NCBI GenBank assembly: GCA_007134875.1
Contig: SLJY01000057.1
Coordinates: 1 to 37,169 of the forward strand
Length of the DNA: 37,169 nt
Direction of reading: 5' to 3'
Source of the DNA: Desulfobacterales bacterium
Lineage (GTDB): Bacteria > Desulfobacterota > Desulfobacteria > Desulfobacterales > Desulfosalsimonadaceae
The notes below the pieces were generated by a model, which was not told where the DNA came from, made no database searches, and saw nothing but the letters and a program-made list of their open reading frames with translations. Positions 1-23,327 of the stretch are shown here, in pieces (positions within the stretch are counted from its first letter, which is position 1; every line of letters begins with the position of its first letter). The position numbers and the translations under genes are program-made.

Positions 1-152
1 ATATCTGCGTTACGCGCGATTTCTCAGAATTTGCGGCTTACGCCTTGTAAACATACACGTACGCCAAGTACACTGCATTCTTCGAAATCGCGCAAGCCTT
101 GATCTTAAACTTTTTACAAAGTCGTCGGATCACGGCTTTTTACGGGAGCATC
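1..152 (-). mobile_element. Family A MITE-like element, copy A1 (cut by window start)
   Basis: This is a reverse-orientation copy of the most abundant repeat in the window. It runs from the arm with GTAACGCAGATAT-type sequence (seen as its complement at the window start) to the terminal GCATC at 148-152. The distal terminal repeat lies outside the window. It shares with copy A2 an extra central segment (GTTTACAAGGCGTAAG-like) that other copies lack, so the two form a subfamily. A degraded family B fragment follows at once, suggesting A1 was inserted into a B element. Confidence 0.8.
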
Positions 153-159
153 AATGTTT

Positions 160-224
160 GCCGCCGGTTAAAGTTCTTGCCTTCCTTGAACTTGGCGAAA
201 AATCCTTATTTTGTTCGGCTATTA
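160..224 (-). repeat. Family B repeat fragment (B5)
   Basis: This stretch aligns along its length with the reverse complement of the B copy at 7444-7546. Shared blocks are CGGTTAAA, then CTTCCTTGA-like, then GGCGAAAAATCC and TTCGGC at the end. It is diverged and truncated where family A copy A1 begins. Confidence 0.55.
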
Positions 225-2949: not shown

Positions 2950-3270
2950 TAGTGCCCGAACGAAAACGGGGATTTTTCGTTAAGCTTGACACCGTAAAAA
3001 GTCTCGATCTGACGGCTTTGTAAAAAGTACAAGATCAAGGCTTACTCGATTTCGAAGAATGCAGATTACTTGGCGTACGCGTATGTTTACAAGGCGTAAG
3101 CCGCAAATTCTGAGAAATCGCGCGTAACGAAGATATTGGACTTTTTACGAAGCCGTCAAGCTTACGGACGGGGAAAATTTTATCCGCGGGAATACCGGGC
3201 GTATTTTGAGGATTATAATTTGAGCCGGCCCTAGAGATTGGAAAAAAAGACGGTTTTCGTTCAGGCGCTG
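2950..3270 (+). mobile_element. Family B inverted-repeat element, copy B1 (split by A2)
   Basis: The left terminus reads TAGTGCCCGAACGAAAAC and the right terminus is a near complement ending GTTTTCGTTCAGGCGCTG. Removing the A2 insertion (2988-3157) and one copy of its duplicated AAGCTT gives a sequence that aligns without gaps over about 29 bases with the uninterrupted copy at 7444-7546. The right half also carries about 40 bases absent from that copy. It fills the spacer between the small unknown gene and the thioredoxin-fold gene. Confidence 0.75.
2988..3157 (+). mobile_element. Family A MITE-like element, copy A2, inserted in B1
   Basis: This is a complete 170-bp copy from the GTAAAAAGTC-bearing left end to the GAAGCCGTC right end. 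It is flanked on both sides by AAGCTT (2982-2987 and 3158-3163), a 6-bp target duplication inside element B1. Internally it forms a long imperfect hairpin. Confidence 0.88.
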
Positions 3271-5867: not shown

Positions 5868-6017
5868 GATGCACTCGCAAAAAGCCACGACCCGACGGCT
5901 TTGTAAAGATCCAAGATCAAAGCCTACGCGATTTCGAAGAATGCAGGGTACCTGGCGTGCGTTAAATTCTATAGAATCGCGCGCAGGCGCAGCTGTTGGA
6001 TTTTTTACGAACCCCTC
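5868..6017 (+). mobile_element. Family A MITE-like element, copy A3
   Basis: A full-length diverged copy beginning GATGCACTCG and ending in a degenerate right terminus GAACCCCTC. The flanking heptamers TTTCAAT (5861-5867) and ATTTAAT (6018-6024) agree at five of seven positions, consistent with an old target duplication. Its right end reaches the stop codon of the minus-strand O-methyltransferase. Confidence 0.8.
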
Positions 6018-7026
6018 ATTTAATTGCGCTGATAAGGCCTGACTGCGTCGGCCCCTCCCAGGGCAGGCGACGGATGTCTTTGAATCCCGATTTTTCCAGC
6101 ATCCGCGAAATCTCTTTTCCGGTGTAAGCGCGTCCTTCGTCGGTTGCCACCAGCATATTCAGCGAAAACAGGCCTGGAAACTCTGGTCCTGAGCGGTCAT
6201 CGTCCATTATGAACTCTTGGATGGCCACCATACCCCCTGCCTCCAGGGCATTGTAGGCCTTTTGGACCATGTTCCCGCAATCGGAAAAACTTTCTCCGTG
6301 AAGAATGTGAGACATCCAGACAACGTCGAAGCCGCCCGGCAGGTCCTGGTCAAGGTAGTTGCCGGCCGCAAAACCGATGCGGCCGCTCATACCGGCTTCT
6401 TCAATCACCTTTTCGGCAAAAGGCCTTGCCGTGGGCAGATCGAATACCACGGCTGTCAGTTCCGGATACTGCCGGCAAAACCAAATTGCATAGGTTCCGG
6501 GACCGCCGCCCATGTCAAGTAGGCGTCTGCGTCCGGTAAGGTCAACCTGCCGGACGATACGGGGGGCCAGGAGGTTGGCGTTGTTGTACATGCCCATAAG
6601 AAAGGCTTCCCGTTCCCATTCATCCTCTTCTTCATCGCCGTATCCGGCAAGGAAACCGCGGACGGGCTTGCCGGTGCGAACGCTTTTGTCGAGATTTTTC
6701 CAGAGGTCTACCAGATGGTGATGGTGAAGAATCATGTAACCAAGGTATTGCGGAGAGGATTTGGACAGATATGCGGAAGCGGCTTCCGTGTTGACGTACA
6801 GGCCGTCCTCTTTTGTCAGAAGCCCCATGGCGGACAGGGCGTCGAGAAGTCGGGCCGTGGCGTCACCCCCGGTGCCGGCTTGCGCTGCCACTTCCTCCGC
6901 GCCAAGACGCAGACCGTCGAGAATGGTGAATACATCGAGCTTCACGGCCGCGTGAAGCGTGCAGGTTTTCCAGAATGCACCCGACAGTTCCAGGATGCTG
7001 CCGGGATGCCAATCATTTGAAGTCAT
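6016..7026 (-). CDS. SAM-dependent O-methyltransferase (hydroxyindole O-methyltransferase-like)
   Basis: This 336-residue protein has the two-domain layout of the plant/bacterial small-molecule O-methyltransferases. A helical N-terminal dimerisation domain with a winged helix (about residues 15-95, including ARLLDALSAMGLL) precedes a Rossmann methyltransferase domain. The SAM-binding glycine loop is LLDMGGGPGTYAI, and a catalytic-region histidine lies in SHILHGES. The substrate cannot be read from sequence. AGGAAAGGG precedes the ATG by six bases. The gene stands alone, convergent to the zinc-ribbon operon. The TGA stop (6016-6018) takes two of its bases from the end of family A copy A3. Confidence 0.92.
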   Translation of the reverse strand: MTSNDWHPGSILELSGAFWKTCTLHAAVKLDVFTILDGLRLGAEEVAAQAGTGGDATARLLDALSAMGLLTKEDGLYVNTEAASAYLSKSSPQYLGYMILHHHHLVDLWKNLDKSVRTGKPVRGFLAGYGDEEEDEWEREAFLMGMYNNANLLAPRIVRQVDLTGRRRLLDMGGGPGTYAIWFCRQYPELTAVVFDLPTARPFAEKVIEEAGMSGRIGFAAGNYLDQDLPGGFDVVWMSHILHGESFSDCGNMVQKAYNALEAGGMVAIQEFIMDDDRSGPEFPGLFSLNMLVATDEGRAYTGKEISRMLEKSGFKDIRRLPWEGPTQSGLISAIK

Positions 7027-7443: not shown

Positions 7444-7546
7444 TAGTGGCCGAACGAAAACCAGGATTTTTCGTCAAGGAGAAGGACGTCGAAAATTTTA
7501 ACCGCAGGAATACTTGTTGAAAAAGACGGTTTCCGTTCAGCCACGA
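7444..7546 (+). mobile_element. Family B inverted-repeat element, copy B2 (uninterrupted)
   Basis: A 103-bp copy with ends TAGTGGCCGAACGAAAACC and, on the other side, the near complement of TCGTGGCTGAACGGAAACC. It is the only uninterrupted longer B copy here and serves as the family reference. No convincing target duplication was seen. It lies just upstream of the cytochrome b/HdrC gene, so a promoter for that gene may lie in or before it. Confidence 0.75.
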
Positions 7547-7573
7547 ACTGACCAATGCAGGAAGTGGACTGTC

Positions 7574-9343
7574 ATGTTTTATGATATTGCTTTTTATATT
7601 TCTTTAGCGGTTTTTTCCGCGGGTGTCTTTTGGCGCATCCGGACATGGTTCACCCGGAGGGTGGGTGATGTCGCCCATGAGCAGACAACCTTCGGCCGGG
7701 TGACCGGCGCCGTAAAAGCCGTGGTGTTTGCCCTTTTCAGCAAGCAGATATTCCGCTTAATTCGGGAATTTTTCGTCAATGTAGTGCTTCAATATAAAAT
7801 CCTCAGGGAGAATTCCGCACGCTGGATTATGCATATGCTGATTTTCGCGGGATTTTTGCTGTTGTTTTTTCTCCATGCCATCGACGACACCTACAGCCAT
7901 CCCTGGATTGACGGGTATTTTTCCACCCTGAACCCCTGGTTGTTTTTACGCAACCTCGGTGCATTCATGGTCCTTGCAGGACTTGGGATTGCCGTATACC
8001 GACGGTTGACCATCCCGGGCCTCAGAAAGCTGACCTATGCCATGGACCGGTACGCCATCGCCATCCTTGCAATCATCATTGTCAGCGGCGTTTTTCTGGA
8101 AGCTTCAAAAATCGTATCCCACCGGGCGTTCGAGGAGATGGCTCAGACCTATGCGCACCCGGACATCCGGATTGCCGATTGGGAAGATGATCCGGAACTT
8201 GAGGCCCTGATGGCCTACTGGCAGGAGAATTACGGGGTTGTGTTTCCTGAGCGGATCGAACCGGACAGCGAAAAACTTGCATGGGGAGCCGATGTGAACG
8301 ACGCATTCGCCTGCTCCATGTGCCACTCCCGGCCCCGGTCGGCCTTTTTAGCCTACCCAGCGGCCCGCGCGGTTTCATCGGCTGCAAACGCCATGACCAA
8401 TGCCGGTGCCGAGACGTTTTTCTGGTACGTTCATGTCCTGGCGTCCTTTATCGGCCTTGCGTATCTGCCTTTCAGCAAGTTTTTCCATATCTTTTCAACC
8501 CCGGTCCGGCTGCTCGCAAAGGTCAAAACCGGATCCGCGCCCGGATCCGTCCCGGCCAACATCGCGACCCTGAGGGCCATGGAACTCGATGCCTGCATGC
8601 ACTGCGCCAATTGCAGCCTGCGGTGCTCTGTGGGCCCGGTATTCGAAACGATTCCCAACCAGGCGATCCTGCCTTCCGAGAAGATCGGCGATCTGAAAAA
8701 CATGGTCCTCAACCGGAACCTGCCCACGGAAGAGCTGCTGCGGATTGCCGAGGGCGCCTGGATCTGCACGAACTGTCATCGCTGCACCGATGTGTGCCCG
8801 GCCGGTATCAATCTCCAGGACCTGTGGTTTTCCATCCGGGAGGAACTGGCCCGGCGCGGTTATCCGGAACCGTACGTGCAGGCGATGAAAAAAGCCCTTG
8901 CCAAAGTGGATCACGAGGTCGACCTTCCCCTTGTTCCCCATCCGCAAAACGGAAAGGAGATGAAGGACGGGCTGCTGCTGTCCGCACAGGGGGCAACGTT
9001 TGCAAACTGCTACAATTGCATGACCTGTACCAATGTTTGCCCCGTTGTGGCCTGTTATGACAAACCGTCGCGGGAGCTGGGGTTTTTACCACACCAGATC
9101 ATGCATGCCCTTGGCTTGGGGTTACGGGACCAGGTGCTCTCGTCGCGGATGCTCTGGGACTGCGTGACCTGTTATGCATGCCAGGAGGCTTGTCCGCAAA
9201 ACGTCCGGGTGACCGATGTGCTCTATGAACTCAGAAACATTGCCTACCAGGATGTAAGAAACGGGATGAACGCCATGCCGGCAAAGGCGGCCGGCGACGA
9301 GCCGCAAACAACGCAGTGCCCGTTGGATAGCCGGAGTACATGA
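7574..9343 (+). CDS. Membrane cytochrome b fused to four HdrC-like Fe-S motifs, with a CxxCH motif
   Basis: This 589-residue protein probably passes electrons between membrane quinones or periplasmic carriers and the HdrB-like protein encoded next. The first 320 or so residues hold several hydrophobic segments resembling NarI/HdrE-type cytochrome b. The hydrophilic loop before the last of them contains CSMCH (C247 to H251), a c-type haem attachment signature. Four ferredoxin-type motifs follow, starting at about residues 341 (CMHCANC), 398 (CTNCHRCTDVCP), 479 (CYNCMTCTNVCP) and 530 (CVTCYACQEACP), which is like two HdrC units in tandem. The start at 7574 has AGGAAG nine bases upstream; the longer reading begins inside repeat B2. 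The exact partner and substrate are unknown. Confidence 0.85.
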   Translation: MFYDIAFYISLAVFSAGVFWRIRTWFTRRVGDVAHEQTTFGRVTGAVKAVVFALFSKQIFRLIREFFVNVVLQYKILRENSARWIMHMLIFAGFLLLFFLHAIDDTYSHPWIDGYFSTLNPWLFLRNLGAFMVLAGLGIAVYRRLTIPGLRKLTYAMDRYAIAILAIIIVSGVFLEASKIVSHRAFEEMAQTYAHPDIRIADWEDDPELEALMAYWQENYGVVFPERIEPDSEKLAWGADVNDAFACSMCHSRPRSAFLAYPAARAVSSAANAMTNAGAETFFWYVHVLASFIGLAYLPFSKFFHIFSTPVRLLAKVKTGSAPGSVPANIATLRAMELDACMHCANCSLRCSVGPVFETIPNQAILPSEKIGDLKNMVLNRNLPTEELLRIAEGAWICTNCHRCTDVCPAGINLQDLWFSIREELARRGYPEPYVQAMKKALAKVDHEVDLPLVPHPQNGKEMKDGLLLSAQGATFANCYNCMTCTNVCPVVACYDKPSRELGFLPHQIMHALGLGLRDQVLSSRMLWDCVTCYACQEACPQNVRVTDVLYELRNIAYQDVRNGMNAMPAKAAGDEPQTTQCPLDSRST

Positions 9344-13106: not shown

Positions 13107-13111
13107 AATAT

Positions 13112-13261
13112 GACGGCTTTGCAAAAGCCCGGCATCAAGGCTTCCGCAGCCACAAGGAATTCATGGCGCCTGCTTTTCATGAAGGGCTTGGTGGGTTGTT
13201 TTTGATTCTGGTATTGGGCTTTTACGAAGCCGTCAAGATATTGGACTTTTACGAAGTCGTC
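13112..13261 (+). mobile_element. Diverged family A element, copy A5
   Basis: The left arm is GACGGCTTTGCAAAAG with ATCAAGGCTT. The right terminus is present twice in tandem (CTTTTACGAAGCCGTCAAG at about 13219-13237, then CTTTTACGAAGTCGTCAAG at about 13246-13264), and the centre is unrelated to other copies. It ends only 14 bp before the Fic start codon. Confidence 0.65.
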
Positions 13262-13275
13262 AAGAGTATATCCCC

Positions 13276-14382
13276 ATGCCGTTTCATCCGAATATCCCGT
13301 TTAATGATCTTCCGCTGCTGCCCCCGGAAACAACTGTGCTGACGCCGTCCGTCCTTGAAAAGGCGGCTGAGGCGGGGCAGGCCCTTAAGGAATTTGATCG
13401 CATGAGAGGGGACCTGGAAAGCTGTTCCTTTTTAATGGATTCTCTGGTTCTTCTTGAAGCAAAGGACAGCTCGGAGATCGAGAACATCTATACGTCCCAT
13501 GAGGATCTTTTTATGGCCTCTGCATTGGGACCGGACGGATTCCACCCGGCGACAAGCGAGGTGCTCAGGTATCATGACGCGTTTTGGGAAGCGTGGAATG
13601 CCGTCTGCAAGCGTTCCTTTATCGCCACCTCGCTATGTGTGGAGATTGTTCGCAGGATCAAGGAAGATCAATCCGGTATAAGGCGGTTGCCCGGGGCCAG
13701 GATTGTGGACTTTGCCGCCGGAAAAGTGGTGTACGCACCGCCCGAAGGAGAATCGCTCATCAGGAAAAAGCTGAAAAATCTGGAGGATTTCATCCATTCC
13801 GGCGACGGCATGGACCCGTTGGTCAAGCTATCATTGGCTCACTACCAGTTTGAGGCCATCCATCCCTTTCCAGACGGAAACGGGCGTACCGGGCGCATTC
13901 TGAACATATTGCTTCTGCAGCTTTATGGACTGCTGGGACATCCGGGGTTGAATCTGAGCCGCTACATTGTTCAAAGGGAGCGTGAATACTACAGGTTGCT
14001 CAATGAGGTCTCTGAAAAAGGTGCTTGGGAACCGTGGATCCTTTTCATGATGGAAGCGATCCGGGAAACGGCAACCCGGTCTTTAGAAATAATTTCAGCT
14101 ATCCGGAAGCTGGTTGCGGAAACTGCTGAAAAAGCAGAAAGGGATTTGCCCCCCGGCGTCTCTCCGAACACCTTGGCCGCATGGATATTTCGTCAACCCT
14201 ATGTCCGAACCCGGTCTCTTGTTGATGCAGGTGTTGCGGAAAAGGGCGTCGCGGAAGACTGCTTCGGAAAGCTGGAAGAAATTGGCGTAGTAAAAAAAGT
14301 GGATACGGATGGCGGGACGCTCTTTTATAACGAAGCATTGTTTGATGCACTCGTAAAAAGTCGTGATCTGGCGGCTTTGTAA
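13276..14382 (+). CDS. Fic family AMP-transferase-type protein with N-terminal inhibitory motif
   Basis: This 368-residue protein has the canonical Fic motif HPFPDGNGRTGR at residues 196-207, with the catalytic histidine, anion-binding loop and arginines intact. Such proteins usually transfer AMP from ATP to a target side chain. SSEIEN at residues 65-70 fits the (S/T)xxxE(G/N) inhibitory helix of class II Fic proteins, so activity is probably self-restrained. A winged-helix-like C-terminal region follows (about 290-360). Targets are unknown and no antitoxin gene adjoins. The last 13 residues and the stop codon come from inserted element A6. Without it, the frame would continue through the second target copy as DLLIQ and stop at 14515-14517. 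The start has no strong ribosome-binding site, and element A5 lies directly upstream. Confidence 0.92.
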   Translation: MPFHPNIPFNDLPLLPPETTVLTPSVLEKAAEAGQALKEFDRMRGDLESCSFLMDSLVLLEAKDSSEIENIYTSHEDLFMASALGPDGFHPATSEVLRYHDAFWEAWNAVCKRSFIATSLCVEIVRRIKEDQSGIRRLPGARIVDFAAGKVVYAPPEGESLIRKKLKNLEDFIHSGDGMDPLVKLSLAHYQFEAIHPFPDGNGRTGRILNILLLQLYGLLGHPGLNLSRYIVQREREYYRLLNEVSEKGAWEPWILFMMEAIRETATRSLEIISAIRKLVAETAEKAERDLPPGVSPNTLAAWIFRQPYVRTRSLVDAGVAEKGVAEDCFGKLEEIGVVKKVDTDGGTLFYNEALFDALVKSRDLAAL

Positions 14383-14492
14383 AAATTTCAAGATCAAGGC
14401 TTGCGCAATTTCGAGGAATGCAGCGTACTTGGCGTAGGTGAGATTCTGAGGAATTGGGCATAACGAAGATATTGGACTTTTACGAAGCCGTC
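14344..14492 (+). mobile_element. Family A MITE-like element, copy A6, in the 3' end of the Fic gene
   Basis: A complete 149-bp copy beginning GATGCACTCGTAAAAAGTC and ending CTTTTACGAAGCCGTC. It has a perfect 7-bp target duplication, ATTGTTT, at 14337-14343 and 14493-14499. Its first 39 bases are translated as the Fic C-terminus and provide the TAA stop. Confidence 0.92.
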
Positions 14493-14541
14493 ATTGTTTG
14501 ACTTGCTCATACAATGAAGGCATATACAGTTTTTATTGTTT

Positions 14542-14846
14542 GACGATTTCGTATAAAGTCCAATATCTTCGTTACACGCGATTGCTCAGGGTTTCACGTG
14601 CGCCAGGTGCTTTTATTCTTCGAAATCACGCAAGCCTTAATTTTGACGGCTTCGTAAAAAGTCCAATATCTGCGTTACGCGCGATTTCTCAGAATTTCAC
14701 GTACGCCAAGTACGCTGCATTCTTCAAAATCGCGCAAGCCTTGATCTTGAACTTTTTACAAAGCCGTCAGATCGCGACTTTTTACGAGTGCATCAATTTT
14801 GAACTTTTAACAAATTCATTGGATCACAAATTTTTACGGTTCCATC
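14542..14846 (-). mobile_element. Family A MITE-like element, copy A7 (split by A8)
   Basis: This reverse-orientation copy runs from GACGATTTCG at 14542 to CCATC at 14846 and is interrupted by A8 at 14645-14794. Joining the two halves gives an uninterrupted family A sequence (CAAGCCTTAATTTTGAAC across the join). Its own flanks, ATTGTTT (14535-14541) and AATGTTT (14847-14853), agree at six of seven positions. With A6 and A8 it accounts for almost all of the 514-bp spacer between the Fic gene and gdhA. Confidence 0.85.
14645..14794 (-). mobile_element. Family A MITE-like element, copy A8, inserted in A7
   Basis: A well-preserved 150-bp copy from GACGGCTTCGTAAAAAGTCC to CTTTTTACGAGTGCATC, flanked by the 6-bp duplication AATTTT at 14639-14644 and 14795-14800. 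It is closest to the consensus, suggesting recent activity. Confidence 0.92.
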
Positions 14847-16207: not shown

Positions 16208-16355
16208 GATGCACTCGTAAAAGGTGGCGATCCGACCGCTTTGTAAAAGGTCCAAGATCAAGGCTTACGCGATTTCGAAGAAAAGAGTTTACTTAGGGTT
16301 CGTGAAATTTTGAGAAATCGCGCGTAATACAGATATTGGACTTTCACGAAGCCGT
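16208..16355 (+). mobile_element. Family A MITE-like element, copy A10
   Basis: A full copy from GATGCACTCGTAAAAGG to CTTTCACGAAGCCGT. The flanks AAGGTT (16202-16207) and AAGGTC (16356-16361) match at five of six positions, supporting a target duplication. It starts 25 bp after the gdhA stop. Confidence 0.87.
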
Positions 16356-21142: not shown

Positions 21143-21347
21143 TGCCCCGAACGAAAACCGTCTTTTTCTGTGTGGTTCCGTTGTCAAGGAACATAGGATG
21201 TACTGACGAAAGAAGCCCGGCATAAACGTCATTTCCCCGTGAAATCTGTTGTGGCGGCATTTAAACGATGCGATTTTCTCGTCAGCACATCCTATCTACT
21301 TGCTTGGCATGCCCTTGGCAAAAAATCCTGGTTTTCGTTCGGGCACT
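21140..21347 (-). mobile_element. Family B inverted-repeat element, copy B3, containing a C element
   Basis: The outer ends are TAGTGCCCCGAACGAAAACC and its near complement GGTTTTCGTTCGGGCACT. The inner sequences match the two ends of B2 in reverse orientation (AAAAATCCTGGTTTTCGTTC and GTCTTTTTC). Most of the centre is replaced by a family C element at 21193-21295. It fills the spacer between the FTR gene and the hydrolase gene. Confidence 0.75.
21193..21295. mobile_element. Family C inverted-repeat element, nested in B3
   Basis: The ends ATAGGATGTACTGACGA and TCGTCAGCACATCCTAT are complementary at 16 of 17 positions, enclosing about 69 bp. Related ends occur at 22699-22761, 30647-30678 and 36440-36474. 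No coding capacity. Confidence 0.75.
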
Positions 21348-23177: not shown

Positions 23178-23327
23178 GATGCACTCGTAAAGAGTCACGA
23201 TCTTACGGTTTTGTAAAAAGTTCAAGGTCAAGGCTTGCGTGATTTCGAAGAATACAGACTGCTTAGCGTGCGTAAAATTTTGAGAAAGCGCGCGCAACGC
23301 AGGTATTGGACTTTTTACGAAGCCGTC
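23178..23327 (+). mobile_element. Family A MITE-like element, copy A12
   Basis: A complete 150-bp copy from GATGCACTCGTAAAGAGTC to CTTTTTACGAAGCCGTC. The flanks AAGAACT (23171-23177) and GAGAACT (23328-23334) match at six of seven bases, an evident target duplication. It lies 45 bp upstream of the HdrA/QmoB-like gene, in or near its promoter region. Confidence 0.9.

Follow-up and report, generated by a model that had tools for sequence, protein, structure and literature searches.

The question raised by this locus is whether a copy of one dispersed repeat, A, has moved into a copy of a second one, B, and whether B elements are preferred targets of A. The analyzed window of 37,169 nucleotides is the whole of contig C37 from a 2.88-Mb assembly (231 contigs, 89% complete) of a Desulfobacterales bacterium. 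In total, 1.64 Mb (57%) of DNA from this genome was read. Contigs C1-C97 (most of their length, 1.15 Mb), which were taken regardless of repeat content, were used as the unbiased set.

A sequence-only reading of the window had claimed that excision of positions 2988-3163, that is A2 plus one AAGCTT, restores a continuous B element, B1, and that A had therefore moved into B; alignment of the two halves of B1 to a consensus from many copies was named as the decisive comparison. The B consensus for this alignment was made from 21 other B copies. Rejoining of the halves (2951-2987 and 3164-3268, with A2 and one AAGCTT removed) resulted in exactly 142 nt, which aligned to the 142-nt consensus continuously from end to end with 123 identical positions (87%) and no gaps. 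When both AAGCTT were kept or both were deleted, 6 gap columns were needed and the scores were 96 and 92, respectively, compared with 104 for the excision of A2 plus one AAGCTT. The rejoined B1 was recognized by the B profile with E = 1.9e-37, covering profile positions 2-142. Its outer flanks, TACAT and TGCAT, form an imperfect 5-bp duplication, and A2 itself starts with GACACCG, ∼3 nt shorter than the consensus GATGCACTCG. The earlier comparison with B2 was wrong in one detail: B2 is not intact, since it is without 42 nt that are present in B1 and in most full B copies, which is why only a short gap-free match had been seen. The nesting gives a relative date, B1 being older than A2, and the exact boundaries of two high-copy MITE families. 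The coordinates are listed in Table 1.

Table 1. Copies of repeats A and B and target site duplications in the window.
Feature	Position	Strand	Basis
A1, A copy cut by contig start, inserted in B5	1..152	-	repeat search; A-in-B end test
B5, first part of B element, broken by A1 at ∼B 66-72	153..223	-	repeat search; A-in-B end test
B1 left part, B consensus 1-37, last bases are the left AAGCTT	2951..2987	+	gap-free alignment
Left target site duplication AAGCTT	2982..2987	.	alignment of rejoined B1; family-wide duplication statistics
A2, long-class copy of repeat A, 170 bp, ends GA...TC	2988..3157	+	repeat search and alignment
Right target site duplication AAGCTT	3158..3163	.	alignment of rejoined B1
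B1 right part, B consensus 38-142	3164..3268	+	gap-free alignment
A copy	5868..6018	+	repeat search
B2, shortened B copy without 42 internal nt	7444..7545	+	profile and alignment
Diverged A copy without 5' tail	13108..13236	+	repeat search; length classes
A copy, 7-bp duplication ATTGTTT; preceding gene reads into it	14344..14492	+	repeat search; duplication scan
A copy without left end, abuts next A copy	14541..14646	-	repeat search; close-pair check
A copy, 99% identical to consensus, 6-bp duplication AAAATT	14645..14794	-	duplication scan; relatives comparison
A copy	16208..16355	+	repeat search
B fragment, one end	21310..21347	-	repeat search
A copy	23178..23327	+	repeat search

In the 1.64 Mb, 260 matches to A were identified, of which 136 have both ends, and the 168 matches in the unbiased 1.15 Mb correspond to ∼420 A per genome. 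Two length classes of ∼150 and ∼172 nt are equally common (63 and 64 copies). For B, 133 matches were found in the same DNA, 46 of them full-length. About 98% of the A and B copies lie outside predicted genes; gene prediction for the intergenic test was based on our own codon-usage calls (82% coding). The end consensuses of A, GATGCACTCGTAAAAAGTCG at the start and GACGGCTTCGTAAAAAGTCC at the end (reverse complement), are terminal inverted repeats, and A is predicted to fold into a 26-nt tail followed by a 124-nt hairpin (-69 kcal/mol, z = -9.3). The ends of B are AGTGGCCGAACGAAAACC, its predicted hairpin extends over the whole 142 nt (-67 kcal/mol, z = about -9.9), and the duplication on either side of it is 5 bp long and follows the pattern TANNT. 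Exact duplications of 6-8 bp were observed at 57 of the 136 full A copies (6 bp, n = 37; 7 bp, n = 19; 8 bp, n = 1), compared with ∼2 in shuffled pairs. A has the features of a MITE, being shorter than 500 bp, non-coding, dispersed in high copy number and equipped with terminal inverted repeats and a target duplication; B likewise has inverted repeats, a target duplication, a hairpin and intergenic positions. As their duplications and ends differ, A and B are separate families, and they are presumably moved by different enzymes. In three B copies (L015:2118-2309, L011:13427-13519 and L146:1251-1346) the centre is swapped for a sequence sharing or lying near GTCAGCACATCCTATGT; they may contain a third repeat or represent a recombinant type of B.

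The window contains further copies of both families. At its start, where the sequence-only reading had seen A1 beside B5, A1 truly interrupts the B element; because the contig starts inside A1, neither the rest of B5 nor the duplication is visible. Between 14344 and 14794, three A copies in opposite orientations lie within 450 bp, the middle one having no left end and abutting its neighbor. A Fic-like gene (13276-14382, motif HPFPDGNGRTGR) terminates inside the A copy at 14344-14492, and its last residues LVKSRDLAAL and the stop codon are thus repeat-derived, i.e., a MITE-made C-terminus.

The same reading had hinted that B might be a preferred target, and A insertions in B were therefore counted on the unbiased contigs and compared with the random intergenic expectation. 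With B making up 3.6% of the non-A intergenic DNA, 18 of 159 testable A copies were located in B, whereas its length would predict 5.7 (p = 1.7e-5); when the two copies from the window were left out, these numbers were 16 of 157 and 5.6 (p = 1.7e-4). This ∼3-fold (2.9-fold) excess over the intergenic share of B bears out the preference. Together with the strong hairpin of B, it would fit a transposase or host factor that recognizes B as such (e.g., its hairpin), as for insertion sequences targeting REP elements. A position weight matrix was, however, trained on 48 A insertions outside B only, giving the consensus TCAANNTTGA for the 6-bp class and TCAANNNTTGA for the 7-bp class. The target of A is a 10-11 bp palindrome, TCAANN(N)TTGA, of which the central AANN(N)TT is duplicated. 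When intergenic positions were weighted by this motif, the share of B was 9.4%, corresponding to 14.8 expected insertions compared with the 16 seen (p = 0.41), and the excess was gone. Over different pseudocounts and flank widths the share was 7-15%, and bootstrapping resulted in 6-13% compared with 10% observed. The best sites predicted in B (92-93, 52-53, 35, and 69) agree with the observed insertion sites. The motif alone accounts for the excess, indicating that B is preferred via its sequence; no recognition of B is needed, and a factor that recognizes B as such is considered unlikely. AT-richness was rejected as the cause of the preference, as an AT-weighted model gave B a smaller share of 1.6%. 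Pooling of the copies thus leads from a single case to a target motif that has been measured and that accounts for the landing sites of A.

Insertion points were also mapped on the B consensus, as had been proposed, by asking at every intact end of A whether a B element breaks off at precisely this position. Insertion into B was found for 30 A copies, and 18 of these share a single site, B 89-95 (AAAATTT), which was entered in both orientations. Further sites are located at B ∼32-43 (A2), 53, 66-72 (A1 in B5), 102-107, and 130. Where B is preserved on both sides of the insert, its left part extends to B 95 and its right part starts from 89-90, and this overlap of ∼6 nt in B coordinates across the inserts is an independent reading of the target duplication. 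Four composites (L009, L010, L011, and L012) share the same B site and orientation, as would be expected if one composite, a B element already carrying A, had been amplified instead of B being targeted repeatedly. Against such an amplification, which is regarded as highly improbable, both orientations and at least four B sites are used, the copies at the hot spot belong to both length classes of A, and for 9 of 13 of these copies the nearest relative lies outside the hot spot. The combination of both orientations, both length classes and outside relatives indicates repeated independent insertions, and these recur in B because it carries several matches to TCAANN(N)TTGA. Reverse nesting was seen as well: 2 of the 46 full B copies (L112:15587-15729 and L075:14596-14741) apparently lie in A, which rejoins across them. 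Nesting in both directions indicates that each family was mobile after the other.

The idea that AAGCTT belongs to the terminal inverted repeat of A, which would leave no target duplication and the insertion unproven, draws on A2, where the palindromic AAGCTT continues into GAC...GTC and AAGCTTGAC ... GTCAAGCTT form a perfect inverted repeat, but it can be dismissed, since among the 136 A copies the six or seven flanking bases vary between copies and match left and right within a copy (AAAATT, AACATT, AATGATT, AAGGTT, and others), and since other A-in-B copies show an overlap of B coordinates between the two sides of the insert. AAGCTT is a true target duplication, as found at many A copies, and with the B halves rejoining in full length and without gaps, the claim that A moved into B is upheld.

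It is therefore very probable that A and B are unrelated MITE-like hairpins and that a transposase acting on the ends of A inserted A2 at a TCAANN(N)TTGA-type site in B. Such a putative transposase would act on the ends GATGCACTCGTAAAAAGTC ... GACTTTTTACGAAGCCGTC, A2 would enter the pre-existing B by a staggered 6-bp cut, and gap repair would copy AAGCTT. Target choice follows the palindrome TCAANN(N)TTGA, and the A2 insertion lies at the predicted site close to B 35. As A starts with GA and ends with TC, insertion into a full palindrome TC/AANN(N)TT/GA would rebuild TCAANN(N)TTGA at both junctions, and the regenerated target may permit further insertions alongside A. Tandems of the form A-duplication-A were identified at L019 and L061 in this genome and at L180 and L307 in other genomes; such tandems are rare (2 of the 17 close A pairs of this genome) and do no more than suggest target regeneration by A. 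If true, A insertions would seed more insertions, A beside A and A inside other MITEs.

Matches to A were detected in 44 of 60 relatives and matches to B in 42 of 60, both counts including this genome. Numerous assemblies named as Desulfobacterales, Desulfobacteraceae or Syntrophaceae contain the exact 19-nt A end, as do Nitrospirae/Thermodesulfovibrionales and Nitrospinota assemblies, where single cross-phylum cases may be mis-binned because these are mostly metagenome assemblies. In the loci of other genomes, 53 of 90 full A copies (two copies of the window itself excluded) have exact 6-8 bp duplications, mostly AA..TT. The gene upstream of the insertion has homologs in four same-genus genomes with 65-72% protein identity. 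Three IMG/VR viral contigs (L323:899-1050 and 7478-7617, L324, and L322:511-679) gave weak, A-like matches that include the exact 19-nt end. A search of the plasmid collection gave no match, and Rfam gave no significant match for A or B and one sub-threshold miRNA match on a hairpin.

For an autonomous partner, paired A ends ∼0.6-4 kb apart, with and without a duplication, were searched in the DNA of this genome and its relatives. No A ends around a transposase gene were found in the 1.64 Mb of this genome or in 0.82 Mb of relatives' loci. The candidate L013:3449-5498 was rejected, as it contains only ordinary genes and one B element and is not bounded by a direct duplication. Profiles for DDE_Tnp_1 (PF01609), Y1_Tnp (PF01797) and ISNCY_1/2 (NF033593, NF033594) had no match in the genome, while the controls worked; the assembly, however, is fragmented and 89% complete, and loss of insertion sequences is common. 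ISNCY-type insertion sequences (IS1202 and ISDol1 groups) were considered as partners of A, since the ISDol1 group is from a related organism and has duplications of similar length; in the relatives' ISNCY_1 loci examined, the gene was not enclosed by a pair of A ends. For the hundreds of MITE-like copies, the movers seem to be lost, to lie in unassembled DNA or to belong to another family. A tentative and rather doubtful extension is that A is a target-regenerating MITE lineage shared by Desulfobacterota, Nitrospirota and Nitrospinota and moved by a transposase family whose connection with the ends of A has yet to be made. The ends of A, the duplication length and the target palindrome together provide a sequence handle for finding this transposase in Desulfobacterota genomes.

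A mobile repeat within another mobile repeat is a familiar phenomenon. Insertion sequences targeting REP elements or other dispersed palindromes are known (ISPsy8, ISPa11, ISPpu9/10, and ISRm22; PMC1525189), and they resemble A in that a mobile element repeatedly enters another dispersed palindromic repeat; in contrast to these, the incoming A is itself a non-autonomous MITE, and its preference is explained by a short target motif. REP, BIME and REPIN elements with Y1 (RAYT) transposases (PMC2817692, PMC3116915) are likewise high-copy intergenic palindromes, whereas A has target duplications and a length of 150-170 bp, and no Y1_Tnp was detected in the genome. Copy numbers in the hundreds have precedents among MITEs, e.g., ERIC with up to 711 copies in a Photorhabdus genome (PMC10969869). 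No published description of the A or B families was found in a literature search drawn mostly from outside subscription papers, and within the literature searched they are filed as previously undescribed families of the familiar MITE type. Like the prokaryotic MITEs Chunjie of Geobacter uraniireducens, Correia and ERIC, they are shorter than 500 bp, non-coding, intergenic and hairpin-forming, with inverted-repeat ends, direct target duplications and a high copy number (PMC10969869). A differs from these in its own sequence, in a duplication of 6-7 bp that lies within TCAANN(N)TTGA and in the asymmetric 5' tail of 26 nt that precedes the hairpin, and from Chunjie it is set apart by description only.
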